Shown: piece by piece, positions 124-53,483 of the stretch
Layout of the letters: each line of letters begins with the position of its first letter
Position numbering within the stretch: position 1 is the first letter of the stretch
IMG/VR virus record: IMGVR_UViG_3300032308_000478
Location: 1 to 57,780 of that record
Length of the DNA stretch: 57,780 bases
Source of the DNA: a virus
Strand: one strand, 5' to 3'
The notes under the pieces: model-generated
Told to the model about the DNA's origin: nothing
What the model saw: only the letters and a program-made list of their open reading frames with translations
Database searches by the model: none
Made by a program: the position numbers and the translations under genes

Positions 124-258
124 CATATACCACACATACTGTCGAGGAAGTGTGTATTGCTTCTGCCTTGATCTATTGGTTAGCATGTCTGCGTTGAAGT
201 AAGGGAAGAAAAGTCTGGCCCTATCAAGTATGCGTTTCAAGATAGGGCCAGACGACAT
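1..258 (-). CDS. DnaA domain IV-like DNA-binding protein, N-terminal part (gene crosses the circle junction)
   Basis: The ATG at 258-256 overlaps the stop of the upstream gene (TAATG). Translation runs to base 1 and continues in frame from 57657 to a stop at 57382, giving a whole protein of about 177 residues. This part holds the recognisable domain: a basic stretch followed by YTLPRQYVWYMLR and then GGWDHTTILHGV. The second motif is the DnaA domain IV signature (usually DHTTVLHA) that binds DnaA boxes. The AAA+ ATPase domain of true DnaA is absent. Stand-alone DnaA-IV-like proteins occur in several phages. A role in origin recognition or in blocking host DnaA is inferred. It ends the MoxR/VWA gene run and precedes the replication genes across the junction. 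Confidence 0.85.
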   Translation of the reverse strand, partial: MSSGPILKRILDRARLFFPYFNADMLTNRSRQKQYTLPRQYVWYMLRAHGMSYPWIAQNTGGWDHTTILHGVKMHATRLMNKKSSL

Positions 259-455
259 TAGTTATTTCCGTGGTGCTTATGCCATGCTTCTGCAATTAAT
301 CGGGACGAAGATCCACTGCGCAACCATGCATCGCATGCTGCGGTTTTCTCTGACGTCCTGATGCCTCTGAATATACAGGGTCCTTTCCACACCCTGTCAA
401 TGCCTTTCTTGTCGGCGCTGAAGAAAGTACACTCACCGCACCGTCTGTCGTTCAT
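258..455 (-). CDS. Small cysteine-containing protein (65 aa)
   Basis: Not recognised. It is a 65-residue protein with a CxxC pair near the N-terminus (CGEC) and further cysteines (PCIF, AACDAW), suggesting a small zinc-binding fold. Its ATG overlaps the stop of the upstream gene (ATGA) and its stop overlaps the ATG of the DnaA-like gene (TAATG). It is therefore translationally coupled on both sides, which supports it as a real gene. Confidence 0.65.
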   Translation of the reverse strand: MNDRRCGECTFFSADKKGIDRVWKGPCIFRGIRTSEKTAACDAWLRSGSSSRLIAEAWHKHHGNN

Positions 456-1159
456 ACCCGTGTGCCTGCTGCAGTCATGACAAGCTGAGCAAATGCGTCT
501 GTATCTAGGTTACTTACAACAGGCATAGTATCCCCAGTCGCTTTCGGCTCAGAAGGTGTACGCTTCTTACGCTCCACCACCTCGGCCAGCTTCGCTTTGT
601 ATTCGGGAGGGACAAACGCAGTCATCGAAGGCATGGCAATCAGCGCCTTGTTAAGCGATGGCTGTCCCTCCATGAATGTCCGAAGCGTCCGCTGCATGGT
701 GGTTGTTTCTGTTTTATACTTCTGTATTGCAAGTCCATAGGCCAGCACATTATCGTAGTCGTCATTGATGGCATCGTCCGTACACACTGCCCCAGCTATA
801 AATTGTATTGTATTCTGGCTCACGTTGAACGGACCGATCTTCTCTGGCTTCCACGATGAGTAAGCCATGGGATAGAGCTTCTTGTTGAAGCCGCTCTCCA
901 TGTCGGAGTCATACAGAACAGTGCTGTGTCCTGCGCTCTGTATCTGGAAGTTAATCGTCTTGAGCGGTTCAGGACGCAGTCTTGATGGCAAGTTCTCGAT
1001 TAGTTTAATGATGTCCTTAGGCATCACGTAGTCATAGATGCAGCGCATCGACAAGGCAGGACGCGCGTTGATCAGGCTGTCCTCCTCAGGTCTGCGGATA
1101 GTCCCAAGGCGGAAGATCATGCCCTTGATGAGGTCGTCGGTAATGCGAACGGTAGCCAT
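452..1159 (-). CDS. Hypothetical protein (235 aa) of the MoxR/VWA module
   Basis: The frame is open to 1270, but the ATG at 1159 is preceded by AAGGGGAC at a suitable distance, so the start is placed there and the protein begins MATVRITDDL. No known domain is recognised. It is soluble, with a mixed alpha/beta-looking N-terminal half and a charged, low-complexity C-terminal third (KAKLAEVVERKKR). It lies directly downstream of the metallopeptidase/VWA gene and overlaps the next small gene by four bases. It probably acts with the module, but that is inference from position only. Confidence 0.75.
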   Translation of the reverse strand: MATVRITDDLIKGMIFRLGTIRRPEEDSLINARPALSMRCIYDYVMPKDIIKLIENLPSRLRPEPLKTINFQIQSAGHSTVLYDSDMESGFNKKLYPMAYSSWKPEKIGPFNVSQNTIQFIAGAVCTDDAINDDYDNVLAYGLAIQKYKTETTTMQRTLRTFMEGQPSLNKALIAMPSMTAFVPPEYKAKLAEVVERKKRTPSEPKATGDTMPVVSNLDTDAFAQLVMTAAGTRV

Positions 1160-1173
1160 GTGTAGTCCCCTTA

Positions 1174-2319
1174 TTACTTGATGTGGATGGTCCGGCCCCA
1201 AGGGGCCTGTTGTGTAGTCGTCGAAGCCCACAGCACAGGATATGCTGGCTGTACGCCGTAGTCGTGGCACTCAAGGTCAGTCAGGACAACGCAGCAGACA
1301 GGGTCGAGACCCATGTCATCGATGCGCTTGAAGATCGGCGAGAACGCCGTGCCTCCCGTCTCGTTGATGCTGATGGAGATATCATCAGCGTTATCGTAAG
1401 TGTCCACCCGGAAGACAGTCGTGTGGAAGTATGCAAGATGTATAAGCTTAGGCTGTACGTCACGGCACAACTCAGTCACGTGTGCCATGAACATGTTAAG
1501 TGTCTCAGGGTTGATGGATCCTGAACAGTCAACAGCGATGACAATCTCACCCACAATCTGAGAGTAGGTAGATGGCCTGTACATACCAGCTGCAGCCATA
1601 CGCCGGGAAGGGCGCGACCATGTACGCTGGTCACCCGTTGTAGTCCGTGTCATCCAGTCAGTCATAAGTGTACGCCAGTCAGGCGGTGTCACCACTGCCT
1701 GCTCGACAAGGCGCTGCATTGTGTCAGACATCTTGCCTGCTTGCTTAGCCGCATTGAGAGCCTGTGTCAGCAACGGCTTCCACTTACTCTCCATCGCGCC
1801 GTCAGTCACATCATCAGCTGGCTCCATCGAGTCCATCTGCTCATGCCCACCGCCACCGCAACTGCCATCGTCTGGCGGTAACAGGTCGTAGATCTGCTCG
1901 ACTACGCCACCGCCCTTACGAAACAAGTCAGGGTCAATGACGCCACCGTCAGGCATACGTCCGATCTTGTCCTTGGTCAGGTAGTCGTTGACCACGATGT
2001 CACATGCAATGTTCCACCGCTCAGGCTCACGTCCCTGCAGCCTGCCGATATGGTCAAGCATAGGGTGCATGCACTCATGGGCTACTAGGAACAGCATCTC
2101 GTCCTTAGTGAGGGACGCGACGAACTCAGGGTGATACCGCACAATGAGACCGTTGACACACGCAGTAGGTGGGTCAATCCGGTCATCGAGTACGTGGTCC
2201 ATGCCAAAAGAAAGCACCCCAAAGAAGGGGTGCTCCAGTGTAAGTATACTACGTGTCCGACTGATAAGCTGATCGAAGTCAGCCTGTGTTATGCGCTTGG
2301 TCTTGGTCTGGCCTCTCAT
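1174..2319 (-). CDS. VWA-like metallopeptidase protein (DUF2201-type)
   Basis: About 381 residues. The N-terminal half carries a zincin-type motif, AHECMH (H82, E83 and H86 counting from the first of two adjacent ATGs), typical of the putative metallopeptidase domain found N-terminal to VWA-like domains. The C-terminal half contains a MIDAS-like metal site, VDCSGS (D265, S267, S269), marking a von Willebrand A-type fold. Such proteins pair with MoxR-type AAA+ ATPases, here encoded upstream at 3433-4530, and probably remodel or insert metal into target proteins. GGAGG favours the second ATG (2319), giving a TGATG overlap with the upstream stop. The phage substrate is unknown. Confidence 0.88.
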   Translation of the reverse strand: MRGQTKTKRITQADFDQLISRTRSILTLEHPFFGVLSFGMDHVLDDRIDPPTACVNGLIVRYHPEFVASLTKDEMLFLVAHECMHPMLDHIGRLQGREPERWNIACDIVVNDYLTKDKIGRMPDGGVIDPDLFRKGGGVVEQIYDLLPPDDGSCGGGGHEQMDSMEPADDVTDGAMESKWKPLLTQALNAAKQAGKMSDTMQRLVEQAVVTPPDWRTLMTDWMTRTTTGDQRTWSRPSRRMAAAGMYRPSTYSQIVGEIVIAVDCSGSINPETLNMFMAHVTELCRDVQPKLIHLAYFHTTVFRVDTYDNADDISISINETGGTAFSPIFKRIDDMGLDPVCCVVLTDLECHDYGVQPAYPVLWASTTTQQAPWGRTIHIK

Positions 2320-3206
2320 CATACGCCTCCCATGAATGTAGCCATTGCGTCCAGTATGTTGTTAGCTTCCGCCTTCGTCCTGCCCCGGAAGTCAGGGTCG
2401 GCCTTGAGCGCCTCAGTCTCCAGTGTGCCAAGACTGTCAGCCACACGTTGTGTCATGGCCTCAAGGTCCGGGTCCCCTGTAATGTTAAGTCTAGGTAGCA
2501 GCTCACACAGCTCACGAATGTTATCGATAGTGCTCTCGTGAAGCCGTGCCTTAGTCTTGCCGTCCTGCTCGGCGCTGTCATCCAGTGCCTGCAACTTGTC
2601 GGCCATATGCTTGACCTTGTCATACAGCCTCTGCCACACCTCCCTCATGGCCTGCTGCATACTGGCCTCAGTACGTGAGACAACGTCAGCCTTGATCTGG
2701 GCTAGCTCATCGTCGCCAAGCTGCACCCTGAAGTCATCAGTCGGGATAGGTGACATCTCCACACTGCAAGCGAACTTACTGCGCAGTGCACCGACATCAG
2801 GGTAGTCCTCCTCCTTGTAGAGACCGTTAGGCAGGAACAGCTTGGCCTCCTCCCTGAGGCGAGGATAAGCCTGCAGGAACCGCTCAACCATGGCATCACG
2901 TTCTGCCATCAGTTTACGGAACTCAGTGGTGAACTTGAGATAGTTCCCCACCGGAAGCAGTCTCGTGCCATCGACTGTGCCCCATGCCATGGTGTTCTGG
3001 TAGACCATCTGGCGAAGGGTAGATGTCATGGCGTGGACATCTTCTAGGTAACCTGTAGCAGGCAGCAGTGCCTTGGTATAACGTCCGACACTGGCATCAG
3101 CGTGATGCTGACTGGCCACCTGCTTGGTCACCTGCTTATCGTGCTTACGTCCTGCCCACTGGCTGATCTTGAGCGTCAGCAGCAAGGCTCTGTCATTGAG
3201 TTTCAT
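2319..3206 (-). CDS. DUF3150-like protein (295 aa)
   Basis: A helical, charged protein that resembles the DUF3150 family, which often sits between MoxR ATPase and VWA genes in phages and mobile elements. Family assignment is by recall of sequence character and gene order. The frame can begin at a GTG at 3218, but GGAG lies inside that extension and is six bases before the ATG at 3206, so the ATG start is preferred (MKLNDRALLL). Likely a partner or adaptor of the ATPase/VWA pair. No catalytic residues are evident. Confidence 0.72.
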   Translation of the reverse strand: MKLNDRALLLTLKISQWAGRKHDKQVTKQVASQHHADASVGRYTKALLPATGYLEDVHAMTSTLRQMVYQNTMAWGTVDGTRLLPVGNYLKFTTEFRKLMAERDAMVERFLQAYPRLREEAKLFLPNGLYKEEDYPDVGALRSKFACSVEMSPIPTDDFRVQLGDDELAQIKADVVSRTEASMQQAMREVWQRLYDKVKHMADKLQALDDSAEQDGKTKARLHESTIDNIRELCELLPRLNITGDPDLEAMTQRVADSLGTLETEALKADPDFRGRTKAEANNILDAMATFMGGV

Positions 3207-3234
3207 CGTATTCTCCACTCTTGTGTGTGTTAAG

Positions 3235-3423
3235 TTAGTTTATAGTACCGCAGTCCGGACAGTCAGGGTCGCCGCAGCTGCCCTGTAGCAGTGAGTCAAT
3301 TGAATCACTGGCGTGAGTATCTGTACCGCATTCAGGGCATACATCGTCACAGGCACAGCACCATTCATCACGCCAGCTTTCACCACATACTGTGCAGTGA
3401 TAAGTAACTACCAGCCAAGTCAT
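3235..3423 (-). CDS. Zinc-ribbon-like small protein (62 aa)
   Basis: Very rich in cysteine for its length. CTVC, CCAC with CPEC, and a C-terminal CGDPDCPDCG cluster give several CxxC knuckles able to hold one or two zinc ions. It sits between the MoxR ATPase and the DUF3150-like gene with short gaps, so it belongs to the same transcript. Zinc binding is inferred from the cysteine pattern. It could be a nucleic-acid or protein-interaction module. Confidence 0.72.
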   Translation of the reverse strand: MTWLVVTYHCTVCGESWRDEWCCACDDVCPECGTDTHASDSIDSLLQGSCGDPDCPDCGTIN

Positions 3424-3432
3424 GAGCGCCCC

Positions 3433-4530
3433 CTAGAACATCATGGACTGGTTACGCATGAAGAACTCAGGCAGTCCCGGAAAGGATGCCGCCTTGAGGT
3501 CCTTACGCTTGAGCATGCTGGATACAGTGATGACACCGAACTCAGCACGTCCGACACTGGCGAACCGGTTGACATACCGCAGTATCTGACCGGCCTTGAA
3601 CTGTGCATCCTGCAGTGTATCCGCCCTGACAACGATCGAACTCAGAGCGCCAGAGAGCGCATAGAGGGTCGCTGTGTCAGTCGGAATGTCTGCAGTGTCA
3701 GGCTTGAGGATAATATCTGCAGGGTTAGTCAGGCTCCTAGCAATACGCAGGAAGCCCACGAACTCAGCAGCAGCGCCTTCACCCACAGCACCACAGAACA
3801 ACTCATGCTCAGCCTCGGCAGGCACAACACCGATAAGCGGTGCGACACCTTCAGCCCATGAACGCGGGGTAGGTGAAGCTGGCTTGTCAGCATCGAAGGC
3901 ATGGAGCAACTCAGGCCTGTAACGCAGGAAACTCACCACATAAGGATGAATGTCCGACGCCTCGGCATAAGCGATCCAGTCCTTGAGGCTGGTCTCGAAC
4001 GCCACCACTGACTCACGGTTACGCAAGTGACTGAGCACCCTGCCAGCGCCAGCCTTGTCCTGCTGACGGTTACCCGTCGAGACAACCTGCCAGCCCGGCT
4101 TGAGCATGACACCGTGAAGCGTCCTTGCTTGGATGATATTGGCCAGAACCTTCTGAATGTCGGCGCTGGCTTGGTTACGGTCGTCGAAGCACAGTATGCC
4201 CTGCTCAGGGATATCGGTCCTGTGTATGGCAGGGAACCACTCGAACAGGCGGTAAGCGATAGTCTCGCCACCGGTCAGCATGTCAGGTATGCCGAAGTCA
4301 TCGACAGTCTTGGTAGGCAGGTGCACCTCGCTGTAACCAATGGCGTTAGTCTGCCCTGTGTATACAACAATGGATCCTACCATGTGCTCGACAGGGTCTA
4401 ACCCTGCCATAGTACGGGCAGTCTGTCTCACGACAGAAGTCTTACCCCCACCGGGAGCGCCTTCGATGCACAGTGACCGCTTGATCTTGTGCAAGGCAAT
4501 AAGGGTCGTTGCCAGCAATGAAGCTTGCAT
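3433..4530 (-). CDS. MoxR-family AAA+ ATPase
   Basis: 365 residues. Walker A is GAPGGGKTS (about residues 24-32). Walker B is ILCFDDRNQ (about 112-120), where MoxR proteins usually have FDEINR, so the second acidic residue is Asp and the Arg position is Gln. MoxR ATPases act as chaperones with VWA-domain partners, for example CbbQ/CbbO, NorQ/NorD and CobS/CobT, and the partner is encoded three genes downstream. The start is well supported: AAGGAG lies just before the ATG at 4530. The gene is downstream of the hammerhead ribozyme on the same strand. Confidence 0.9.
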   Translation of the reverse strand: MQASLLATTLIALHKIKRSLCIEGAPGGGKTSVVRQTARTMAGLDPVEHMVGSIVVYTGQTNAIGYSEVHLPTKTVDDFGIPDMLTGGETIAYRLFEWFPAIHRTDIPEQGILCFDDRNQASADIQKVLANIIQARTLHGVMLKPGWQVVSTGNRQQDKAGAGRVLSHLRNRESVVAFETSLKDWIAYAEASDIHPYVVSFLRYRPELLHAFDADKPASPTPRSWAEGVAPLIGVVPAEAEHELFCGAVGEGAAAEFVGFLRIARSLTNPADIILKPDTADIPTDTATLYALSGALSSIVVRADTLQDAQFKAGQILRYVNRFASVGRAEFGVITVSSMLKRKDLKAASFPGLPEFFMRNQSMMF

Positions 4531-4600
4531 AGGTATCTCCTTCAGTTTTCCAGAGTTTGATGTGTGTAGTTAGTTAGGCCGTAGTCCCGGGTACACGCTG

Positions 4601-4822
4601 CTATGCAGTTGTACCTGTCCGATACCGCTTGTGGTCCGGGCCGATACTTACCACGAGGGTCTCTCCTGCACTCAGTGCGTTGAGAGTATCACGCTTACGC
4701 TTGGCCTTCTCCTTGGTGGAGAAGTAGAGCGCCGTGGGTGTGTCGCTCTGTGTGGTGTTGATCCTGTACAGCCTGCCAGAAGCGTAGCGAAGCATGTACA
4801 GACGTTTCTCGTTCTCTTTCAT
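4601..4822 (-). CDS. Hypothetical basic protein (73 aa), first gene after the ribozyme
   Basis: Not recognised. It is a 73-residue, lysine- and arginine-rich protein (STKEKAKRKRDTLNAL) with a short beta-rich N-terminal half. GGAG lies at good spacing before the ATG at 4822. It is the first coding sequence after the hammerhead cleavage site, so the 3' cleavage product would begin at 4879 and carry this gene with the MoxR/VWA module. Confidence 0.7.
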   Translation of the reverse strand: MKENEKRLYMLRYASGRLYRINTTQSDTPTALYFSTKEKAKRKRDTLNALSAGETLVVSIGPDHKRYRTGTTA

Positions 4823-4845
4823 GATATACTCCAGAGGTGTTATAC

Positions 4846-4912
4846 ACTGATGGACTCATCAGATGGCGCATAACGCCATGAGCGTCTCACGACGCTTTCG
4901 TCCTGTGTCAGT
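4846..4912 (-). ncRNA. Type II hammerhead ribozyme
   Basis: Read on the minus strand, this 67-base segment folds into a complete circularly permuted (type II) hammerhead. In order it has: an outer helix ACTGA (4912-4908) pairing with TCAGT (4850-4846); stem II GGAC (4903-4900) pairing with GTCC (4855-4852); core GAA (4899-4897); stem III closed by the A15.1-U16.1 pair, with GCGTC / GACGC around a GTGA tetraloop (4895-4882); C17 at 4880; stem I ATGGCG / CGCCAT with a five-base loop (4879-4863); and core CTGATGA (4862-4856). All invariant hammerhead core bases are present and stem II closes with the usual G10.1-C11.1 pair. Cleavage is predicted between 4880 and 4879. It lies between the 34-residue gene and the gene starting at 4822. 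Confidence 0.93.
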
Positions 4913-5016
4913 TATGGCTTATCCCATACCGCAATCACCACCGTCACGAAGACGATGATGAACACTGCCGCAATGGACAGCCAGAAGGATTCGTGCTCTT
5001 CACTTTCCATGGTCAT
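4912..5016 (-). CDS. Small single-pass membrane protein (34 aa)
   Basis: A 34-residue frame: a short acidic N-terminus (MTMESEEHES), then one strongly hydrophobic helix of about 20 residues, ending WDKP. Its ATG overlaps the stop of the upstream gene (ATGA), and a second ATG at 5010 lies eight bases after GGAG and could be the true start. The stop codon directly abuts the hammerhead ribozyme. A tiny membrane peptide of an early phage operon; function unknown. Confidence 0.65.
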   Translation of the reverse strand: MTMESEEHESFWLSIAAVFIIVFVTVVIAVWDKP

Positions 5017-5210
5017 GACTCCCCTACGCAGTAAACGACTTCCTCAGGTGTCATCGTTGAAACCAGCTTATCCAGTTGCTCTTCAGCTTGGTCAATGAGC
5101 ATCCGATACAGGTCCACAAGAGGTTCACTGTCTTCAAGGCTGTATACCTCCCATAAGCAGTCGATCTTATCGTGCAGTTTCTTGTACTTCTCTATGCTAT
5201 CCATGTTCAT
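5013..5210 (-). CDS. Hypothetical helical protein (65 aa)
   Basis: The frame is open to 5234, but the ATG at 5210 overlaps the upstream stop (ATGA) and follows AAGGAAAGG, so the start is placed there (MNMDSIEKYK). It is acidic and helical. Its C-terminal half (MLIDQAEEQLDKLVSTMTPEEVVY) resembles the same region of the neighbouring gene at 5207-5428, suggesting tandem duplication. Function unknown. Confidence 0.62.
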   Translation of the reverse strand: MNMDSIEKYKKLHDKIDCLWEVYSLEDSEPLVDLYRMLIDQAEEQLDKLVSTMTPEEVVYCVGES

Positions 5211-5428
5211 AGGCCTTTCCTTTCTTCGTCCCACAGTTCACACAGGATCTCACTGTATTCGACTTCTTCCTGCGTAAAGCTTTCGATCAGGTCCCAGTTA
5301 GTGTCCATCATGTAGTTGAAATGGTCGAGAACCATGACGTTCTTGGTCCTGTTATAGATACCAATAAGCTTCTCTGCCCTCTCGAAGTTGGCGATGAAGG
5401 TGGTGATCTTGCTGTAATCAATGCTCAT
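5207..5428 (-). CDS. Hypothetical helical protein (73 aa), likely paralogue of its neighbour
   Basis: A 73-residue acidic helical protein starting MSIDYSKITT, with AGGGAGGA just upstream of the ATG. The segment YMMDTNWDLIESFTQEEVEY lines up with the matching segment of the next gene downstream, so the two look like diverged copies. It is coupled to that gene by an ATGA overlap. No domain recognised. Confidence 0.65.
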   Translation of the reverse strand: MSIDYSKITTFIANFERAEKLIGIYNRTKNVMVLDHFNYMMDTNWDLIESFTQEEVEYSEILCELWDEERKGL

Positions 5429-5440
5429 AGTCTGTCCTCC

Positions 5441-5710
5441 CTAAATGGCCTGATAGAACTTACGGCCATAGGAACGTGGTTTCCTGCGGCCTTGCCGTAC
5501 GCTCTGCTCAACTTGCTGGTTATAGATACGAAGGCTGTACTCCAGCTGCTTGGCTAGGGTAACAGCGGCCTCAAGGGTGTATACATATTCAGGGGGAGCA
5601 AGCGATATACAGCCATCAGGTGGTATATACTCGACGTTATAGCCGCCATCAGCGACAGGTGTAATCGACACATTGGCCGAATACTTTACAGCAAATGCTA
5701 AGTTAGACAT
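5441..5710 (-). CDS. Hypothetical protein (89 aa), first gene left of the AT-rich region
   Basis: The ATG at 5710 has a near-ideal AGGAGG five bases upstream, so the longer frame to 5737 is not used. The protein begins MSNLAFAVKY and has a beta-rich N-terminal part and a basic C-terminus (RQGRRKPRSYGRKF) suited to nucleic-acid contact. It is the first gene transcribed leftwards from the presumed origin region. No family recognised. Confidence 0.68.
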   Translation of the reverse strand: MSNLAFAVKYSANVSITPVADGGYNVEYIPPDGCISLAPPEYVYTLEAAVTLAKQLEYSLRIYNQQVEQSVRQGRRKPRSYGRKFYQAI

Positions 5711-5749
5711 AGGTTCCTCCTGCTTTACAGCATTCATTGGTACTTAAAT

Positions 5750-5812
5750 CGGGACGCAATTCGCCCCGACCCCAAGAGACTGCCACGGATCGGAGCCGCT
5801 GTCCATGTGGCA
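5750..5812 (-). promoter_or_regulatory. Structured leader upstream of the gene at 5710
   Basis: Two inverted repeats lie in the leader of the minus-strand gene at 5710. One is an imperfect hairpin at 5750-5768 (arms of seven bases with one wobble pair). The other has arms TGCCAC (5781-5786) and GTGGCA (5807-5812). No strong T-run follows either one, so an mRNA stability or attenuation role is more likely than plain termination. Function is inferred. Confidence 0.35.
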
Positions 5813-6420
5813 GATTGTCGCACCCCCGGCGAGACTTAACATTATTCACTGCATAAAACGCAGTTTATGTAATGACTTACATAAAACACGACGAAATATA
5901 GAGACAAAGGGTGAACATACGATATTAAATCGGATAACTTTACACATAATCCACGGGATGAGGCAGAAAAAGGGGCGCGAGGTAACTTAAATGTATCGGA
6001 GAACTGACGTAGAATCAATGGGTTAGCGCCAACAATCTAAATAAGGTAAGTTTTTCGAGGTAATGTGGGGGTAAACGGGTAGGGGGGTATAGTCCCTGCT
6101 GAGTGTAGGGTTATTCCGCAAACTGTAGTGAACCTGACTAAAAAAACGTACCTTTTTTACCTTATTTATATTAAAGTTATAACTTAACTATATATATAAC
6201 CCTTATTTTCCTGCATATCCCGTGGTTTTCCCGCTTTACACGCGTAAAGTTAGCGAGGCAAATTAAAGTTATTTGAAATAGGATTTTGATAGATTAAAGT
6301 TAGTCGAGATAGATTAAAGTTACCACCCTATACTTTACATTAGTAATGTTAAGTTATATCATTAAGTTAACGCGCGCGATTTATGCGAGCTATAACCCCC
6401 CGACGTATGGTCCTACTATA
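5813..6420. other. AT-rich repeat region, candidate replication origin / early control region
   Basis: About 600 bases with no credible gene. Six copies of the octamer TAAAGTTA are present, five on the plus strand (6172, 6245, 6264, 6295, 6315) and one inverted (5935-5942). The last two are spaced 20 bases apart within the repeat AGATTAAAGTTA. Perfect palindromes occur at 5864-5885 (TTTATGTAA, four-base spacer, TTACATAAA), 5849-5864 (ACTGC / GCAGT) and 6337-6349 (ACATTAGTAATGT). A, T and poly-T tracts surround 6140-6200. Iteron-like repeats in AT-rich DNA, in a genome encoding a DnaA domain IV-like protein, fit an origin. Leftward early promoters must also lie here or just upstream. Confidence 0.5.
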
Positions 6421-6464
6421 CAAAAACAAAAGGCAAAAAGAAAAGGCCCGGATTTCTCCGAGCC
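6421..6464 (-). terminator. Intrinsic terminator after the gene at 6476-6667
   Basis: Read on the minus strand, an eight-base stem (arms 6464-6457 and 6452-6445, one mismatch) with a four-base loop is followed by TTTTCTTTTTG. It lies directly after the stop codon of the minus-strand gene and separates it from the repeat region. Confidence 0.75.
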
Positions 6465-6475
6465 TCTCCAGTCTA

Positions 6476-6667
6476 TTAGTTTTTCCACCAAGCGATCATC
6501 AGCGCCGTGTCAGTCTTTGGTTCCTGTCGGACTACTCGCCAGACCGTTGGGTCGGGCATCTGAGCGAGGACCGCTAGCGCGTGGGCCTCTGTGGTGAAGT
6601 ACTCTGCGGTTCGCCATGCCTCTGGCTTGCCAGCGTCGGCGATGTTCGTCTGTAGTACGTAGGTCAT
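6476..6667 (-). CDS. Hypothetical early protein (63 aa)
   Basis: The ATG at 6667 follows AAGGGA at good spacing, while the longer frame to 6736 runs back through a hairpin. The protein begins MTYVLQTNIA and ends WWKN. Its plan (short beta strand, charged helix, then WRVVRQEPKT) resembles the 71-residue protein at 7350-7565 (RWWRVEERTK), so the two may be diverged duplicates. It is followed by a terminator. Function unknown; it may be an early host-takeover protein. Confidence 0.65.
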   Translation of the reverse strand: MTYVLQTNIADAGKPEAWRTAEYFTTEAHALAVLAQMPDPTVWRVVRQEPKTDTALMIAWWKN

Positions 6668-6693
6668 ATGTGTTCCCTTTTGTTGAGAGGAGT

Positions 6694-6717
6694 GGGCTCC
6701 CGGGAAACCGGGAGCCC
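6694..6717 (-). promoter_or_regulatory. Perfect 10-bp hairpin between two minus-strand genes
   Basis: Arms GGGCTCCCGG (6694-6703) and CCGGGAGCCC (6708-6717) pair perfectly around a four-base loop. There is no T-run downstream on either strand. It lies between the stop of the gene at 6730-7008 and the Shine-Dalgarno of the gene at 6667. This looks like an RNA stability or processing element or a weak terminator, not a full intrinsic terminator. Confidence 0.55.
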
Positions 6718-6729
6718 GTAGTCCTAGAC

Positions 6730-7008
6730 CTACCAAACGTTGCGAGGCTTGTTCGCAACTTGTTCGGATCTCGTGAAGCTGACGTTGTTACGCCGCACCT
6801 TGAGATTGACCGGGAAGCCTACACGCTTCTCGATTGCAGCCTTGAGCCTCTCATGCCCTTCCGTTGTCATCCGGAAGGCGGTCGAGGCTTCCTCGTTCTG
6901 GATATCGCCAGCGAAAAGAGTATACCAACCCTTCTCGTTCGGCACCCATCCTGATGAAGAACCTTCGTTCTTCTGGAAAGCCTGAGTCTGCTTTGTGGCT
7001 TTAGCCAT
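6730..7008 (-). CDS. Hypothetical early protein (92 aa)
   Basis: AAGGAGAA precedes the ATG at 7008 at ideal spacing. The protein begins MAKATKQTQAFQKNEGSSSG, a flexible basic tail, followed by a compact segment with WYTLFAGDI and a helix (HERLKAAIEKRVGF), and ends KPRNVW. No family recognised. It follows the best TTGACA-type promoter in the control region, so it is probably strongly expressed early. Confidence 0.7.
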   Translation of the reverse strand: MAKATKQTQAFQKNEGSSSGWVPNEKGWYTLFAGDIQNEEASTAFRMTTEGHERLKAAIEKRVGFPVNLKVRRNNVSFTRSEQVANKPRNVW

Positions 7009-7349: not shown

Positions 7350-7565
7350 CTAGGGCGTCAGTGTGTTCCGCTCCTTGACCAACCAGTCCGTCATGCCTGC
7401 CTTGGTGCGTTCCTCTACTCTCCACCATCTCTTCGGCCTGCTACCGAGTGCGAGATCCTTGGCGATCTGGGTCTGTCTTATGCGTTCTGCCGTTTCCGGC
7501 GAGTCAGCGTAGGACCACACAACCCAAGACCAATCCGCATCGATGTAACCAACGACGTAACCCAT
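7350..7565 (-). CDS. Hypothetical early protein (71 aa)
   Basis: Of the possible starts, the ATG at 7565 is preceded by GGAAGG at seven bases and is chosen (MGYVVGYIDADW). The upstream frame to 7778 reads through regulatory DNA and is rejected. The protein is tryptophan-rich (WSWVVWSYA, RWWRVEE) with a charged C-terminus. It shares its layout with the 63-residue product of 6476-6667. It is a monocistronic gene with its own terminator, at the right edge of the leftward early set. Function unknown. Confidence 0.65.
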   Translation of the reverse strand: MGYVVGYIDADWSWVVWSYADSPETAERIRQTQIAKDLALGSRPKRWWRVEERTKAGMTDWLVKERNTLTP

Positions 7566-7871: not shown

Positions 7872-8366
7872 ATGGACAGATCCGCTATCCTGCACACAAG
7901 ATGGTCCGACCGACTGGCGTTTGACCTAGCCCTCTGTCTGGAAGGCAGTGGCGAACCTATCAATGATATACTTAGCAGGCACAACCTGTCCCCATCCGAC
8001 CTCATGGGGTTCAACGCCGACCCGGTATTCCTCAAGCGGGTGGAGAGCTACCGGGAAGAGATCATCAGCAAGGGCATGACGTTCCGCCTCAAGGCGAGGG
8101 CGCAGGCTGAAGAACTCCTGACAACATCGTGGTTGCTGATACACGACCCGTCCGTATCGCCTGCCGTCAAGGCCGACCTGATCAAGTCAACGGTCAAGTG
8201 GGGCGGGCTGGAGCCCAAGGGCGATAGTGGCGAGGCGGGCTCTGGTGGCGTCAGGATAAGCATCAACCTTGGAGGACAGGACCTCCCCATGACGATCATC
8301 GATCACGATCCTGCCCGTATCCCTGCCTCGGCAAGCGCATCAGGGTGGGCGCTGGATGAAAGCTAA
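7872..8366 (+). CDS. Terminase small subunit
   Basis: 164 residues from the ATG at 7872 (MDRSAILHTR). The upstream open frame from 7176 passes through promoter DNA and is not used. The N-terminal helical segment (LCLEGSGEPINDILSRHNLSPSDL) looks like the DNA-binding part of phage small terminases, followed by a helical oligomerisation region and a flexible C-terminal tail. The assignment rests on this layout and on its place just before the large terminase. It would recognise phage DNA and regulate the packaging motor. No Shine-Dalgarno is seen. Confidence 0.75.
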   Translation: MDRSAILHTRWSDRLAFDLALCLEGSGEPINDILSRHNLSPSDLMGFNADPVFLKRVESYREEIISKGMTFRLKARAQAEELLTTSWLLIHDPSVSPAVKADLIKSTVKWGGLEPKGDSGEAGSGGVRISINLGGQDLPMTIIDHDPARIPASASASGWALDES

Positions 8367-41900: not shown

Positions 41901-44900
41901 AGGACCTGCAGAGGATAAAGGGGTTTCCAAAAAGCCGACTGTTCGGGAAATCAAAACTGTAGAACAAGCGCAAGCTGTCTTCAAAGAACTTGTCGCCACG
42001 GACTTCCCTAAGACAGACGTGACTAAGATTGAGGAGTTTAAGGCTGCGGCCAAGAAACTTATCGAGTTTGTTTTCTTGGCTTCTACGCTGGAAACAAACT
42101 CAGGCAAACGCAAAGCAATAAAGGAAAAGCAGGAAGAAATTTCTGCAGCATTTAGGGTTATGGATGCCAGCAACAGGCAGGCGTTCAACGAAGTATTTGC
42201 GGATGTTATAAACAACCAAGACAAAAAATCCGTAGACGCAATTTATAAAACCGGTGCTCAAACTGGACAGGTTCGTCCGTGGTACGCCTATGCAGTTTCA
42301 CACGATATAAAGCTAACTATCCGTATCAATATGCAGGACAGGGCGAACGCAGCCCTTGCTTCTACTATTAATAAGTTCAACACGGAAGCGTCTGCGGTAG
42401 ATCCTGCCACCCCTAAGACTGCGCCTGCGGCAGTTGCCGAGTCTGTCGATGAACCTGCGCCCGCAAAGAACGCCAAGTACATCGAAGCCGTAGGTGCCCT
42501 ACCCGACACCGATAGACCGGGCCTTGTTAAACTGGCGCAAAATTATGTAAGAAACGGAGTCATAACCAAAGAGCAGTTTGACAAGCTCATAAAAGAAAGC
42601 GAGGGTCTAAAAGACGCTCTACTGGAGGTACTAGGTACCGCCCGGTTCATCCGCAATGACGGCACAGCACTCCCTATTAACAAGGGCGTTGATTTCCTCA
42701 AGGCCAAGGCCACGGTCACCAAGATCGTCAACGGGTTCAAGGTCAAGCCCAAGGTCCACGTATACATAAACATCCAGAACCTGAAGCTCAGCAACCCGGA
42801 ACTCTATGAGCGGGCGCGGCGGGCGCGTAGCGCACCGGAGGAGTTCGAGTCCGGTAACTTTGATGGGTATGCGTTTGGTAATGATATCATCATCCTTACC
42901 AGCAAGATACAGACTGATACGCATCTCAAGACAGTTCTGGCACACGAGACGCTGGGTCACTTCGGCCTGCGCTCTATCTTCTCTGATGCTGACCTGACCA
43001 CCCTGCTGACTGAAGTACTTGCGACTGACCGCAGGCTTCGGAGCAAGGCGCGGGAGAAGGCCTTTCTATACAAGATAGATGAGATTGAGGCGGCTGAAGA
43101 AGCACTCAGTGACATTGCTGCGCAGCTTGAGAACAACACACTACTCAAAGTGTGGAACGCCATCAAGGACGCACTCAACCTGATTGGCATCAAGTTCGGC
43201 GACGAGATGGCACGCTACCTCATCCGGCTCGCAGGGCGTTACGTCAAGAAGGGCGAAGAAGCCCCGGCCACTGTGTTCAACGTAGCTACGATACGCGCCA
43301 ACATGAGTGATTTGGCAATTGAAGGTGCCATCGGGCGCTTCTCTGCCAGCCCGCTTCCGGCTGTCAGTCCTACGCTTGCGTACAGTGCAGCGTTTGACGC
43401 CGCCGTTGCTGGTGCGGTGGATCTGCAGAAAAAGTATAGCCAAGGCAAAACACTGCTCCCGCGTTCCACGGCAGCGGCTGTTAAAGGCAGTCGTAACATA
43501 TGGCGGAAAGTGCAGTCACGTACTGCGAAAGTCTCGGAAGCTATCCAGTCACTGGATAGTAAGGGCGATCTCAGTGAGGGTCTAGCCAAGCTGTATAAGC
43601 TATTCCAAGACCAAGCAAATAACACGCAACGTCTTATCCAGAAGTACATGGACATGCTGAAGTTCAGCGTGACAGATTCATATGCTACGGAGGAAGAACG
43701 TCTTCAAGCTGGTAAGATGGCGTCCCATTACACGCTATACCGGCAGAACCTTCTGCGTAAGACAGTCAGCATAGACGAACTTGCCAAGGGGGTGCGCAAG
43801 GCGGTTGCGGATGAGGCAGGCAAGCCTGTCACTGAAGACATGCAGAAGACGCTTGATACTGCTAAGATTGTACTGAAGGCGCTGAATGCTAACGAAGAGT
43901 TCGTCAATCTGGATGGCGATGGACTGCCTGTTGCCGACACTGATCTGGACAGCGACAAAAAACAGAAAGGCATCAAGAATACCACGCTCCTCAGAAGGGT
44001 AGCTCGCGAGCTTGGTGTTGAAGTTCGTACAGTGCAGGGCGATCTCGCCAAAATCGGTCCGCTTGGAAACATGGACAGCGGCATCTTCGTCTTTAATACG
44101 GACAACTTGAACAAGATTACCAGCTTTGTCGAACCTGACATCAATCTGTTTAGGAAAGGGTTCGACGCACTGGTAACTGAAGATGCAATGGCAGCAAACA
44201 TCAAGCCGGTAACGCTGAAGTTTGAGGCTATGCCTGACCTTACGAAGGACAGTAAGGAATGGATTATGTTCAAGGAACTGCTCACGGTTGAGCAGGAGAA
44301 AGCCAAGGACCTTCTGCAATCCAAGTACGAAAGATACATTGAATATCTTGACGAGATGAAACGAAAACTTGGTCTTATCAAGTCAACGGTTCCGATTGGC
44401 CAGCGCGAAATCGATTTCTTCTTTGATGTCAAAAACAAGTATCTCGAAATCATTCACCTGTCGCAGGCTAAGGACGGCACTGTCACACGCATAGATACGC
44501 CAACCGCCAGAACACTTAGGAATGGCGATCAGTTTTTTGTCGAAGTTCTTAAGGCGCTACACAGCAAGCCCAAGCTCAATGACTGGAAAGGCATCAAACG
44601 CGATGCTGCAGGCGACCAAATAGAAATCGCAGAAAAGTATATTACAGGTCCGCTTAAAACTGCGGTTGGTATTGATGATAAGTTCATAGCAGAACTTGAA
44701 CACATGAACACGCTTGGCATCAGCCAAGAGACCCAGATAAAGTACATCAATCCGTTGTATGCGGATCATGCTGTTCTTAGTACGGCTATATATAATGCAG
44801 AAGAACGGGCAAAGAACACGATTGCCATGGGCTATGTCCCGCTCATGCGCCGTGGGAACTGGGAAGTCAGGCTTGAAGCATACGACCCCAGTACGGATAG

Positions 44901-47337
44901 AGCAATTGAAACAGGCAAAGGGATCAAATCCCTGCTTCCCTATTTCATGGTGGCTGATGAAGCCGCAGCCAACGACATGGCCTATCTTCTCAAAGAGCCT
45001 TTCGAAAATCAGGAGTTCCTGTTCGAAACGGGAGAGCCTCCGCTGGCAGGAGAGCCAGCGCCCACAACTAAAATCAAGTTCCGCGTAGTAACTTCAGAGA
45101 AAGGCAAGCTTCCGCCGCTCGGTAGCTCCGTGGATTTCGGCGACTTCCTGCGAACGCTTCTGCGCATGAACATTGATCTTAACCCTGATCAGAAAGAAGC
45201 TATCATCCAAGCCATGACGGCGCAGGAATCTGCTGCCCGCCGCAACATGCTGCGTTCTGGTACGGTTGGTTGGAACCCGGATATCGTACAGAGCGTAACT
45301 ACTGACGTGCAGACGGGCGCGCATGTAGCCAGCGGTGATCGGTACTCTCATCGCACCGACGAGATCATGTCGAACCGCGACAACTGGTACGGCAGTGAGA
45401 AGCAACTTAGAGATCTGCGTACTGCATGGGAATCAGCCAAGGCCAGCGGCAATGCAGCTTTGGCCCATATAGCGCACGAGAACTACTCTAGATATGCATA
45501 CCGCTTTGTCCACATGGCGGGCAAACGCCCTAACTCTCCTAACAAAATCAAGTTCTGGAAGGCTGACGGTACAACGATAGACATAGAGACGTTGGGTGAA
45601 GGTGAACGCTTCAGAGACGATGGCAAGAAACTGCTCAACTACTACCAGCGGTCGGATAACATCATTGACCCGACTGAAGGCATCCTGACTGAACAGGGCG
45701 GCGCGTTGAAGAACGCAGCTGTCTTTCTGCAACTGAGTTTGAACGTGTCTTCCGGTCTGGTTCAGGCCATTACGCTTCCGTTCAACGTCATCCCGTATCT
45801 CTCCTTCTATAATCCGAAGCGCGGTTATGGCGGCGGGTTCGGCCTTGTCGCGTCAACGTTGGAGATATTCAGCGCAATTGGGAATGTAGCAAACCCGCTC
45901 AAGCAAGAAGCATTGCAAGACGCTGCAGCTCTTCGCAGTATGATAGAGAACAACGAGTATGGAAGTTACGGCCTTACGCTCGACGAAGCGTTCATGTTTC
46001 TCGGACAGGCTGAGAGTGGCAACCTTCTTCCGGCACAGACCAACACCCTGCTGCATACGTCCCGCAGCGGTGTCAGCCGAGGACTTCCCGCCCAGATACT
46101 CAAGGTGTCGATGTCGTTCTTCAGCTGGATGGAGCGGACCGTCCGTATGGTAACTGCTCTTGCAGCTTACAGGCTCTACAAGCAGCGAGCGATTGCAGCA
46201 AAGATTGACGGCGGTATCTTTAATACAAAGAACATAAACGAACTCAATACCAGCCAAGTATATAAGGATGTCTACGAAAGCACCGGCCAAGCGGTCATCA
46301 AGACCAACGGTGACTACAACCAATACAACAGACCAGAACTTTTCCGTAACCACTTCACCCAGTACATCTTTATGTACCGGATGCCGCAAGTTGTGACGAT
46401 GCAGATGGCTGCTGCTCTTCCGATAAAAGGACAGATAACTTTTGCCGCTACTATCATTATACTGGCCGGTATAGCGGCTCTCCCCGGAGCCGAAGACCTG
46501 TTCGACATCGCGGATACAATTATCCAGTTCTTTAAGCTCCCGATCCCAAGTGTTGAAGCTGAGATTGCTAATCTCCTGAACAACGTCACGGGTGGGCACG
46601 GCAGGATACTTATGAACGGCATCCTTAACGAAGCCGGGTTCAACGTGTCGAGCAAGATATCAATGGGAGATATCCTGCCGGGTTCAGGAATGTTCCGCGC
46701 AGGGGCTGATCCGGGTCGAGAGCTGATGCAGCTGGCGGGGCCGGTGTTCTCGGCTATGCACGGTACGTTGAATACAGGTTTCCAGTTGGCGCACTGGGGC
46801 GTGGCCAGCACTGGACTTACTGACAAGACCATGACGCTGCCTGAGATCCTGAGGAACTCGCCGTCCTCTGCCGTCAAAGGTTGGGTTGACAGCCTGACTT
46901 ACCTGAACGATGGCAGGATCACCGACGCCAAGGGTAAGGTTATCTCCGAGGATGTCTCAACGGAAGTTATACTTGCGCGTATGCTCGGGTTCTTCCCGGC
47001 AGAATCTGCACAAACTAACCGGGTCATCCGTCTCAGTCAGTATACAGCAGACTATGCCAAGGCAATCGCTGGAGGTTACCGCTCTGCCTATGTCCAAGCA
47101 TATGTACGCAAGGATTTCGCCCGCATGCGGGAGATCGCCAATGATGTGCGGGAATGGAACAAGAGCGCTAAAGACACGCCGTTCTTCATCAAGGACTTCG
47201 AAGAGCGGGCGAGGAAGGCCGGTAAAGAAGCGTCCATCCCCGCCGCTGCACGTTACCTCAAGGTTGCACCGGATTCGTCCGAGGCTATGGTCAATGATCT
47301 GATCAGCATCTATGGGCTGGAAGATGGCACAGGTTGA
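38995..47337 (+). CDS. Giant polyvalent ejection protein (2,780 aa)
   Basis: TTG start with AGGAGG five bases upstream. In order: a helical and membrane-prone N-terminal region (residues 1-440, with Gly/Ala helices such as AIGGLGGGATEAGQEAILMA); a Pro/Ala-rich stretch with five QxxxF motifs (Q455, Q470, Q490, Q567, Q601); and a basic Lys/Ala/Pro linker (670-800) with an SAP/Rho-N-like helix pair. Helical domains follow, then a VLAHETLGHFGL motif at H1317, the HExxGH signature of phage polyvalent proteins. The C-terminal region resembles large polyvalent protein domain 38, with an IAALPGAEDLFDIADTI helix near residue 2490. It is probably packed in the capsid and injected with the DNA, taking the place of T7 gp16. 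Confidence 0.85.
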   Translation: MPPNTPTLPSLDQTLLDIRVPGRVQTPTAGVGLQNLAPSSADPMINLRRMAEESTRSLESLRAAPAQTEKQPFQVQYGPQIGYSPSTGKIGVNGFVFNKDDYANALESEKYLGGAPQALPRNEVADWVPLSQNAYSALLKNIREPGIGDLFMRNVDIGFAGSQQLLGSGLQLVGAEKLGSDIAGGAQQRLDQLSPFQREFTSIQDAGDVGEFLIATFGQFTPSVLEAVVTGGVGSIAGKTIAKQLLSKEAKKQFSKDVLAYQAAKKAKDTATMKALGPAVREKAGYYGALVLNGLNSYRMGASDVYGELRQQGVDPNDVNAKMAALAYGLPYGALEALPEFFAFNKILNPKYAVTTPSLARRVASGTAIGGLGGGATEAGQEAILMAAGEQVADADYSDEYAKRLVNSFAAGAAFGGPVGGAINALAPVNLLKTPPAPAAAAPPRLAENAPVGTQGELFGGTELGKAPGQMELFPGADLGTAPAPVGPTQLDLFAPSPAVPTAGLTAPFVDYTAQRELDLGPPFGPDSFPRPSGMPREAGAGFDAAAVPVAPPVAAAAPVVAPVGTQMEMFAPEGLGQTTALPPAPQPVVSPIPSSALGGQREMFSYQPSSGTIRRNRLQQRPPISFPNDPYRVSPNILSRPQRQQEPPPAPVVPPTAPAGPTGPARGAAKIKTAGKKSAAASKPAAAPKPAASEATALDDARAMVKDVTAPGKLPNRERLKNLAAKLKIKTTKRDTREDIYRRIEEAVASFEPAPPPTPPTGKKPVPKNLKQGSAKAKAAASKPAASKKETLQKGPKGAAVDENDGAVRVERDKGLRYVEYQTSVADINERLQFAIADSDNAVRLFAKNPAAAIRSISQHITAAVGEKKYAVSNTLKKLKTDFENLEARAREARARTGETTNVLKQEFEKLVEQVKTEYAAFREREADLVPKEPSPTTVAGTKQPAAAGATAGRGRAAEPAGASTAKEGPAEDKGVSKKPTVREIKTVEQAQAVFKELVATDFPKTDVTKIEEFKAAAKKLIEFVFLASTLETNSGKRKAIKEKQEEISAAFRVMDASNRQAFNEVFADVINNQDKKSVDAIYKTGAQTGQVRPWYAYAVSHDIKLTIRINMQDRANAALASTINKFNTEASAVDPATPKTAPAAVAESVDEPAPAKNAKYIEAVGALPDTDRPGLVKLAQNYVRNGVITKEQFDKLIKESEGLKDALLEVLGTARFIRNDGTALPINKGVDFLKAKATVTKIVNGFKVKPKVHVYINIQNLKLSNPELYERARRARSAPEEFESGNFDGYAFGNDIIILTSKIQTDTHLKTVLAHETLGHFGLRSIFSDADLTTLLTEVLATDRRLRSKAREKAFLYKIDEIEAAEEALSDIAAQLENNTLLKVWNAIKDALNLIGIKFGDEMARYLIRLAGRYVKKGEEAPATVFNVATIRANMSDLAIEGAIGRFSASPLPAVSPTLAYSAAFDAAVAGAVDLQKKYSQGKTLLPRSTAAAVKGSRNIWRKVQSRTAKVSEAIQSLDSKGDLSEGLAKLYKLFQDQANNTQRLIQKYMDMLKFSVTDSYATEEERLQAGKMASHYTLYRQNLLRKTVSIDELAKGVRKAVADEAGKPVTEDMQKTLDTAKIVLKALNANEEFVNLDGDGLPVADTDLDSDKKQKGIKNTTLLRRVARELGVEVRTVQGDLAKIGPLGNMDSGIFVFNTDNLNKITSFVEPDINLFRKGFDALVTEDAMAANIKPVTLKFEAMPDLTKDSKEWIMFKELLTVEQEKAKDLLQSKYERYIEYLDEMKRKLGLIKSTVPIGQREIDFFFDVKNKYLEIIHLSQAKDGTVTRIDTPTARTLRNGDQFFVEVLKALHSKPKLNDWKGIKRDAAGDQIEIAEKYITGPLKTAVGIDDKFIAELEHMNTLGISQETQIKYINPLYADHAVLSTAIYNAEERAKNTIAMGYVPLMRRGNWEVRLEAYDPSTDRAIETGKGIKSLLPYFMVADEAAANDMAYLLKEPFENQEFLFETGEPPLAGEPAPTTKIKFRVVTSEKGKLPPLGSSVDFGDFLRTLLRMNIDLNPDQKEAIIQAMTAQESAARRNMLRSGTVGWNPDIVQSVTTDVQTGAHVASGDRYSHRTDEIMSNRDNWYGSEKQLRDLRTAWESAKASGNAALAHIAHENYSRYAYRFVHMAGKRPNSPNKIKFWKADGTTIDIETLGEGERFRDDGKKLLNYYQRSDNIIDPTEGILTEQGGALKNAAVFLQLSLNVSSGLVQAITLPFNVIPYLSFYNPKRGYGGGFGLVASTLEIFSAIGNVANPLKQEALQDAAALRSMIENNEYGSYGLTLDEAFMFLGQAESGNLLPAQTNTLLHTSRSGVSRGLPAQILKVSMSFFSWMERTVRMVTALAAYRLYKQRAIAAKIDGGIFNTKNINELNTSQVYKDVYESTGQAVIKTNGDYNQYNRPELFRNHFTQYIFMYRMPQVVTMQMAAALPIKGQITFAATIIILAGIAALPGAEDLFDIADTIIQFFKLPIPSVEAEIANLLNNVTGGHGRILMNGILNEAGFNVSSKISMGDILPGSGMFRAGADPGRELMQLAGPVFSAMHGTLNTGFQLAHWGVASTGLTDKTMTLPEILRNSPSSAVKGWVDSLTYLNDGRITDAKGKVISEDVSTEVILARMLGFFPAESAQTNRVIRLSQYTADYAKAIAGGYRSAYVQAYVRKDFARMREIANDVREWNKSAKDTPFFIKDFEERARKAGKEASIPAAARYLKVAPDSSEAMVNDLISIYGLEDGTG

Positions 47338-51935: not shown

Positions 51936-53483
51936 TCACACCCTCTGTTGTTGGATCAGGTCCAGCAGAACACCTTGCACGTTTTGTTTGTTCTTGAGTC
52001 TCTCGTACATCCGGTGTTCTAGTTCTGTGGATTCTATGTGTATTATGTTTGATGTATACTTCTTGCCTATCCTTTCTATCCGTCCGCATGCCTGTACGTA
52101 AGTCTCGTTGGAGTTGATCGGTCCGTACCAGATGATTGTCCGCGCTGCTGTCAGCGTCAGGCCGTGAGCCATGGTTGCAGGGTGCGCGATAAGTATGTGC
52201 GGGTCCTTGGTATTCTGGAAGTTGTGGAAGATCACGTCCCGCTTTGAAGACGATACCTCCCCGTTAACTACACCAACTGTATAGTCCTTGCTTAGCTCCT
52301 CCTCCAACATGCGCAGTGTACCGGTCAACGGTACGAAAATAATAACCTTGTCGCCGATCTCTTCGATCACCTCCCGCACAGCCCTGATGCGTGGCGAGCA
52401 GTCCAGATGTATGTTCTTGCCGTCCTCCCCATACGCCACGCCGCAGCAAATCTGTATAAGCTTCAATGCTTTAACTGCGTCGTTGGCTGCAGTGATCTGC
52501 CCTCCTGCCAAGTCTGCGATCAGCGTCTTCATCATGCTCTTATAGTGCGTCTCCTGCTCGGCAGTCAACACAACTTTACGGGTTTGTACAACTGTTTCCG
52601 GCAGGTCGAAACATTCATCCCGTGTAAACCTGACGCTTGGTTGCAGCATCTTGCTGGCAATCTCCGTGGCGTCTGGCCTAGGCACAAGGCGGTAGGGGCC
52701 CACCCTCTGCATAACCTTCTCGCGGAAGGCTGTGAAAGGCATCGTGCACATGGGGCTATCGATAAGTCTGGCCAGCGCCCATGCGTCTGTCGGTTCGTTA
52801 GGTGTAGGTGTCCCAGTCATGAGCCACGCGCGTGTTGCAGGGTTCTCCTGTAGCCAGCGTCGAAGGATCCTGAACTTCTTTGTGCCGGGGTTACGCAGCA
52901 CAGCTGCTTCATCAACAATGATCAGGTCGAACATGCCGTGTGTAGCGTCAGCTATGATTCCAAAACCGTCGTGGTTTACAATGAAGAAGTCTGCATCTGT
53001 TTTGAGTAGTTTCATGCGACGTTCCGAAGTGCCGTGAAGTGTCACTGCCTTGCGGTGTACAAGTTCAGAGAAGATCGCATCACCCCACACCCGCTCCAGC
53101 GTGGACAAAGGCGACACGATCAAGACTTTCTTTATGTCGCCGCGTTCCATGAGGTAGTCAGCTGCCCACAGCGCACTGATGGACTTGCCTGTGCCGATCT
53201 CGTTCAGCACAAGACCGCGCTTGTGGAATGTCAGGAACTCAGCCGTCTTGCGCTGGTGCTCGTAAGGTTTGAACCGTCCGGGCCAGTCGTAATAGTAAAG
53301 TATGGGCGACGGAGCCTTGATGCCAAGGTTACGTAAGACCTTAACTTCGTCCAGTTTGTGCGGCACAATTGTCAGATCTATGCCGTCTCTGTGTAACATC
53401 CTAGCTGTAGGTATTGTAGACAGTACCCGTTCAGGGTTGTTAAGCTTGAGCGCGAGCGCCCTCGCTTGCTCGACGACAATCAT
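51936..53483 (-). CDS. SNF2-type DNA helicase / translocase
   Basis: 515 residues. Motif I is NEIGTGKS (around residues 94-101), preceded by a Q-motif-like FKPYEHQRKTAEFL. Motif II is DEAA (IIVDEAAVLRN) and motif III LMTGTPTPNEPTD. C-terminal motifs are VIIFVPLTGTL, HGLTLTAARTIIWYGP and QACGRIERIGKK (motif VI arginines). SNF2-like enzymes of this size are common in phage replication modules with a family A polymerase and a VRR-NUC nuclease. It probably moves on duplex or branched DNA. It overlaps the nuclease gene by 44 bases. Confidence 0.92.
   Translation of the reverse strand: MIVVEQARALALKLNNPERVLSTIPTARMLHRDGIDLTIVPHKLDEVKVLRNLGIKAPSPILYYYDWPGRFKPYEHQRKTAEFLTFHKRGLVLNEIGTGKSISALWAADYLMERGDIKKVLIVSPLSTLERVWGDAIFSELVHRKAVTLHGTSERRMKLLKTDADFFIVNHDGFGIIADATHGMFDLIIVDEAAVLRNPGTKKFRILRRWLQENPATRAWLMTGTPTPNEPTDAWALARLIDSPMCTMPFTAFREKVMQRVGPYRLVPRPDATEIASKMLQPSVRFTRDECFDLPETVVQTRKVVLTAEQETHYKSMMKTLIADLAGGQITAANDAVKALKLIQICCGVAYGEDGKNIHLDCSPRIRAVREVIEEIGDKVIIFVPLTGTLRMLEEELSKDYTVGVVNGEVSSSKRDVIFHNFQNTKDPHILIAHPATMAHGLTLTAARTIIWYGPINSNETYVQACGRIERIGKKYTSNIIHIESTELEHRMYERLKNKQNVQGVLLDLIQQQRV

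Follow-up and report, generated by a model that had tools for sequence, protein, structure and literature searches.

A predicted self-cleaving type II hammerhead at a gene junction of a viral operon and its relatives in other phages

The window, a 57,780-nt stretch of viral DNA (IMG/VR record IMGVR_UViG_3300032308_000478, positions 1–57,780), carries on its minus strand, at 4903–4852, an element that is almost certainly a true type II hammerhead. It occupies the junction between a 34-aa ORF and the ribosome-binding site of the next gene, in an operon containing a MoxR/VWA module. The best explanation, in which we place considerable confidence, is a cis-acting self-cleaving hammerhead, the likely use of which is to separate neighbouring genes into mRNAs of independent stability.

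The role of hammerhead ribozymes in bacteria and phages has been an open question since 2011. In that year phage hammerheads were proposed to process long transcripts into operon- or gene-length mRNAs, and type II hammerheads, together with clusters flanking genes, were described in prophages (PMC3088659); the first-pass annotation of the window was mistaken in regarding a role as operon divider as new. Another study repeats that the association is unexplained and links it to Mu-like phages (PMC10085705). If the explanation given above is true, some phages separate co-transcribed genes by RNA catalysis and not by promoters, terminators or host RNases.

Sequence, fold and statistical support of the element

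The minus strand from 4904 to 4851 consists of the hammerhead segments listed below with an A at either end. The segments and the ribosome-binding site were read from the sequence, the G12–A14 strand also from the covariance-model alignment, and the cut is predicted from hammerhead numbering.

4912–5016, minus strand: 34-aa ORF upstream of the ribozyme, not conserved in the closest relative, L006
4903–4900, minus strand: stem II, 5′ strand GGAC, preceded by the conserved A at 4904
4899–4897, minus strand: core G12-A13-A14
4896–4881, minus strand: stem III hairpin, AGCGUC (4896–4891), loop GUGA, GACGCU (4886–4881), with the A15.1-U16.1 pair
4880, minus strand: C17, with predicted cleavage between 4880 and 4879 (C17/A1.1)
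4879–4863, minus strand: stem I hairpin, AUGGCG (4879–4874), UNANG-type loop UUAUG, CGCCAU (4868–4863)
4862–4856, minus strand: core C3–A9, CUGAUGA; position 7 is U here and C in L006
4855–4852, minus strand: stem II, 3′ strand GUCC, starting with G10.1; the G10.1-C11.1 pair is 4855–4900
4832–4829, minus strand: ribosome-binding site GGAG of the next gene
4601–4822, minus strand: 73-aa gene directly downstream (ATG at 4822), conserved in L006 and partly in L004/L005
3433–4530, minus strand: MoxR-like AAA ATPase (PF07728, phrog_1297)
1174–2322, minus strand: DUF2201 metallopeptidase/VWA partner

Every invariant position of the type II core (C3-U4-G5-A6-N7-G8-A9, G12-A13-A14, A15.1-U16.1 and H17) is present, with no core mismatch. 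Stems I and III (6 bp each) are closed by loops and stem II (4 bp) is open, which is the type II order. Excised RNAs of 54–59 nt are predicted to fold into the hammerhead as the minimum-energy structure (−22.6 kcal/mol), the folding program closing an additional U-G pair at the top of stem I. The first-pass annotation had called a type II hammerhead free of core mismatches, and its coordinates, predicted cut site and flanking features agree with our reading; its range (4846–4912) encloses the element, although about 8 nt of it are spacer on the 5′ side.

A covariance model, R1, was built from 44 other viral sequences with the window excluded. It scored the window element at 70 bits (E 2e-17), the sole match in 57.8 kb; the member sequences of R1 had been picked by pattern and descriptor, so that its pair counts lean towards the structure. 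A structural descriptor with the true core gave 165 matches in 1.89 Mb of viral loci versus 0, 2, 0, 0 and 1 for five scrambled cores. The pattern GCGTTATGCGCN{1,4}CTGANGAG covers part of stem I and one core strand, leaving stems II and III and the GAAA unselected; GAAA, U16.1, stem III and stem II were nevertheless correctly placed in 24 of its 28 distinct viral matches, whereas none of 29 matches in one-per-species bacterial genomes was a complete hammerhead. Mutual information across the subfamily described below recovers the stem I pairs, whose columns covary. Given the scrambled-core counts, the E value and a homologous copy in L006, assembly of three hairpins by chance has a negligible probability and may be regarded as already refuted, as the first-pass annotation had supposed. 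Two further CTGATGAG sites in the window (26785, plus strand; 56501, minus strand) are not hammerheads according to the covariance model. A bacterial origin was also considered and set aside: two pattern matches were found in about 800 genomes, and both lack the hammerhead fold as judged by eye. We give no weight to a covariance-model search of whole bacterial genomes, which scored only 150 candidates per genome.

The closest relative, contig L006, encodes a MoxR protein 84% identical to that of the window and possesses a diverged hammerhead at the same gene junction (GAAC GAA ACC...GGU C GUGGCG UUAUG CGCCAC CUGACGA GUUC). The two elements, each the single copy of its contig, differ at the variable core position 7, in the loops, in the whole of stem III and at paired bases of stems I and II. 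In the latter two stems the paired bases change together (stem II being GUUC/GAAC in L006), so that the covariation proposed as a check in the first-pass annotation is seen between these relatives as well as in the family. The small genes have been gained or lost right up to the ribozyme while the ribozyme itself was kept, since L006 lacks both the 34-aa ORF and another 73-aa gene of the window at 5207–5428.

Comparison with Rfam gave a different outcome. The first-pass annotation had proposed scoring against the type II model, with a score below threshold counting against its call, and the window indeed has no match at the gathering threshold or at E ≤ 10. At the gathering threshold (37 bits for RF02276), scans of 37 distinct sources, among them the window, reported no hammerhead; even a canonical member, L096, reaches 28.8 bits against RF02276, and L006 reaches 15.1 bits. 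We attribute the failed check to a gap in Rfam's model. RF02276 (Hammerhead_II) belongs to the same clan and has the same permutation, but its consensus combines a 2-bp stem II with a longer loop I, whereas stem II is 4 bp long in the subfamily. The element is a hammerhead by fold that lies outside Hammerhead_II as the model now stands.

BLASTN of the window region against cultured phages gave no match. The same search with the hammerhead consensus retrieved chance pieces only, because the stems vary too much.

A phage subfamily and its placement between genes

A second pattern, GGTCGAAAN{12,40}THN{13,23}CTGANGAGACC, which leaves stem I free, matched in at least 120 viral contigs. At least 202 type II hammerheads (180 distinct) were found across the viral loci examined, and none in bacterial control loci. 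Stem II has an A immediately before it in 174 of 178 relatives, the stem I hairpin is 17 nt long in 163 of 178, and position 17 is C in 161 of 178; among the members with a 17-nt stem I, the loop starts with U in 161/163 and ends with G in 134/163. The window element has all the traits of the subfamily: stem II is 4 bp long with an A at its flank, the stem I hairpin measures 17 nt and carries a UNANG loop, and the site is intercistronic. Mutual information also connects the U that opens loop I with the A in front of stem II (157 U/A, one A/U and one A/C), a signal that can be taken as a hint only, since these columns barely vary.

The type II hammerheads described in 2011 (PMC3088659) share with this subfamily the core CUGANGA/GAAA/UH, the arrangement of closed stems I and III with an open stem II, and a phage or metagenome setting with clustered copies flanking genes. 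The subfamily differs from them in the UNANG pentaloop on a hairpin of fixed 17-nt length, the 4-bp stem II and the A on its shoulder, and it occurs in free viral contigs and cultured phages rather than in prophages. It also displays no signal of a pseudoknot between loop I and the tail, a contact present in the majority, though not all, of the type II examples, while many hammerheads do not rely on it (PMC3088659). Subfamily-wide, 14 matches of 4 bp between loop and tail were observed versus 12.5 after shuffling, with no excess within 40 nt. This tertiary contact was dropped for lack of enrichment across the family; the window does have a UUAU/AUAA match of uncertain weight located 8 nt beyond stem II. 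Loop I of the window element can likewise pair upstream, with CAUAAC around the stop; this is not a family feature. The HDV-like theta ribozymes of gut phages also self-cleave in phage genomes but, in the part of their description drawn on here (PMC10879173), form another ribozyme class, tied to tRNAs and recoding.

Cultured Streptomyces phages are among the carriers, Dryad (MT498037) with six copies and Lizz (MZ648036) with eight, several of them in annotated gene gaps upstream of a helicase gene; one of the Lizz copies lies at 52781–52841. Both grow on a laboratory Streptomyces strain, and the question of function is therefore directly testable. A homologous pair of copies in Lizz and Dryad (L289 2199–2269 and L288 1946–2016) reads CCGANGA instead of CUGANGA, the U4C change being kept in both. 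Gordonia phage Buggaboo has no significant match, and no copy was found in the nearest TerL relatives, Rollin and RHph_TM3_14A. Three subfamily copies lie at 5862–8698 of L192 (positions 43862–46698 of G018, the 406-kb contig of L077); the subfamily is not limited to small phages, since a viral contig of that size carries it.

Counting ORFs of 50 aa or more, a stop codon falls between −10 and +15 nt from stem II in 78% of copies versus 9% at random positions of the same loci, and a Shine–Dalgarno (SD) sequence with a start codon follows within 60 nt in 87% versus 24%. The stop usually ends within 5 nt of stem II (−1 to +4 nt in 105 of 158 copies), and a TAG stop often has its G in common with the stem. 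In the window this distance is 8 nt, the last base of the stop of the 34-aa ORF being 4912. The location between this stop and the ribosome site of the next gene, pointed out in the first-pass annotation, thus proves to be the rule across the family. In multi-copy loci the copies are always on one strand, with a median spacing of 497 nt; on contig G002, 11 of them are interspersed among the genes of one operon over 4.8 kb, and on G003 eight. We are dealing with a large and uniform phage subfamily missed by Rfam thresholds, in which nearly every gene junction of some operons has its own ribozyme.

The two longest arrays (11 and eight copies) have similar first proteins (L190 4010–4426 and L191 2784–3224; TG.GRHFH.F.DCR), which have no match in cultured phages, and both arrays end at a helicase. 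Another locus, L025, contains three successive hammerheads (7452–7499, 7884–7943 and 8183–8243) and is among the four viral matches of the stem I/core pattern that did not prove to be complete type II hammerheads. By eye, its first copy has the type III permutation, with GAAA downstream and stem II closed, and the same GCGUUAUGCGC stem I; the next two are type II. This series suggests that circular permutation may have taken place inside one operon.

The literature searched contains no report of the UNANG-loop subfamily or of arrays this dense, nor of hammerheads in Dryad and Lizz or the MoxR link. The subfamily, the stop–ribozyme–SD geometry and the cultured carriers appear to be unreported there.

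Proposed role and alternatives

We propose that the type II hammerhead is transcribed in cis within the minus-strand operon, folds during transcription and would cut the RNA at the C17/A1.1 bond (4880/4879). Of the two products, the upstream one would retain its stop codon and have the stem III hairpin, bearing a 2′,3′-cyclic phosphate, at its 3′ end. The downstream one would have a 5′-OH and open with the stem I hairpin; the ribosome site of the 73-aa gene would come next, and then the MoxR/VWA module. Neighbouring genes could in this way be split into mRNAs of independent stability with protected ends, because a 5′-OH avoids 5′-monophosphate-dependent decay and both new ends are hairpins. 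Such end protection would be expected from what is generally known of bacterial mRNA turnover.

Judged by the class to which it belongs, the window element very likely self-cleaves; for clusters of prophage hammerheads in comparable positions, cleavage has been measured both in vitro and in E. coli (PMC3088659). We also expect, with somewhat less assurance, that the ribozyme cuts the operon during infection. Ribozymes of this kind probably cut long phage messages into shorter ones. That the selected function consists in stability and gene separation is the reading towards which we lean, by a more modest degree of belief.

With the stop codon so close to stem II, a ribosome terminating there would be expected to prevent folding. 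It could be imagined that this ribosome, on finishing the upstream gene, occupies stem II together with part of stem III, that cleavage takes place mainly when this gene is little translated, and that the fate of the downstream message is tied to upstream translation. Stops that abut or overlap stem II, often by a shared G, fit such a switch, and the spacing is much tighter than mere gene separation needs; however, compact phage genomes also favour tight packing, and the spacing varies, with 8 nt in the window. We consider this option rather unlikely. Less probable again is that the RNA cleaves without any role in expression, as a neutral or selfish element or as paired ribozymes giving small circular or spliced RNAs in the manner of retrozymes. 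The patchy distribution would agree with this, and tandem copies on the same strand could release unit RNAs, but what lies between the copies is a protein gene, the position relative to stop and SD is strictly kept, only one copy is present in the window and in L006, and spliced or circular products were sought and none found in the 2011 study (PMC3088659).

We give still less weight to a hammerhead look-alike, a hairpin for processing or stability that has lost cleavage in this phage because its 3′ flank causes it to misfold. In longer predicted transcripts a competing fold that involves the 3′ tail with its AUAAC indeed has the lower energy (−28.7 versus −21.4 kcal/mol), and pair 2 of stem III, which is G-C in the window, departs from the C-G of 44/44 model sequences. 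Against this, all catalytic positions are intact, compensatory changes separate the element from that of L006, and the RNA is predicted to fold as the hammerhead when stem II is completed, transcripts ending at 4852–4840 preferring it. The timing of cleavage may matter for the self-cleaving hammerhead that we favour, because the ribozyme is the predicted fold at these ends while later sequence can form the competing one.

As a tentative extension, many phages might use a standard cassette (stop fused to stem II, ribozyme, SD, start) at successive junctions. The transcript would then dice itself into single-gene mRNAs with 5′-OH hairpin starts and hairpin/cyclic-phosphate ends, and a ribosome at the stop codon would sense cleavage or set its timing.

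The MoxR/VWA neighbourhood

R1 was also applied to 80 viral loci around relatives of the VWA protein (37–72% identical). It detected hammerheads in six of them, all on the VWA strand, and in 6/6 the element is at the MoxR gene:

Directly before MoxR: L239, L279 and L287
One small gene before MoxR: L006/L208 and L242
Directly after the MoxR stop: L222

The elements of L222, L239, L242, L279 and L287 resemble that of the window in being type II, on the same strand and at MoxR. They differ from the subfamily in a shorter stem II and a longer stem I, and in most of them loop I can pair with the tail (by eye), as in the 2011 type II consensus. These five are more remote instances of the same arrangement. 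Over all MoxR loci a hammerhead is near the gene in 6/71 and absent near it in 65/71. The connection with the MoxR/VWA module drawn by the first-pass annotation gains support from the six further loci; its description as an early operon rests on gene order only.

The 73-aa gene between ribozyme and MoxR has no relative in cultured phages. The family of the protein encoded at 1174–2322 (minus strand) is named HNH endonuclease in PHROG (phrog_1314); the name looks wrong in view of its Pfam domains, a DUF2201 metallopeptidase and a VWA domain. A promoter and terminator scan of 200–6900 gave no excess over shuffled sequences, and neither signal was found between the ribozyme and MoxR. Upstream, the first gene of the minus-strand operon is preceded by a strongly conserved non-coding leader (5742–5831, minus strand), which has no Rfam match and is a possible cis-regulatory RNA. 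It comprises a CTGCCACA...GTGGCAG hairpin followed by TCTTGGGGTCGGGGCGAATTGCGTCC and is nearly identical in L006.
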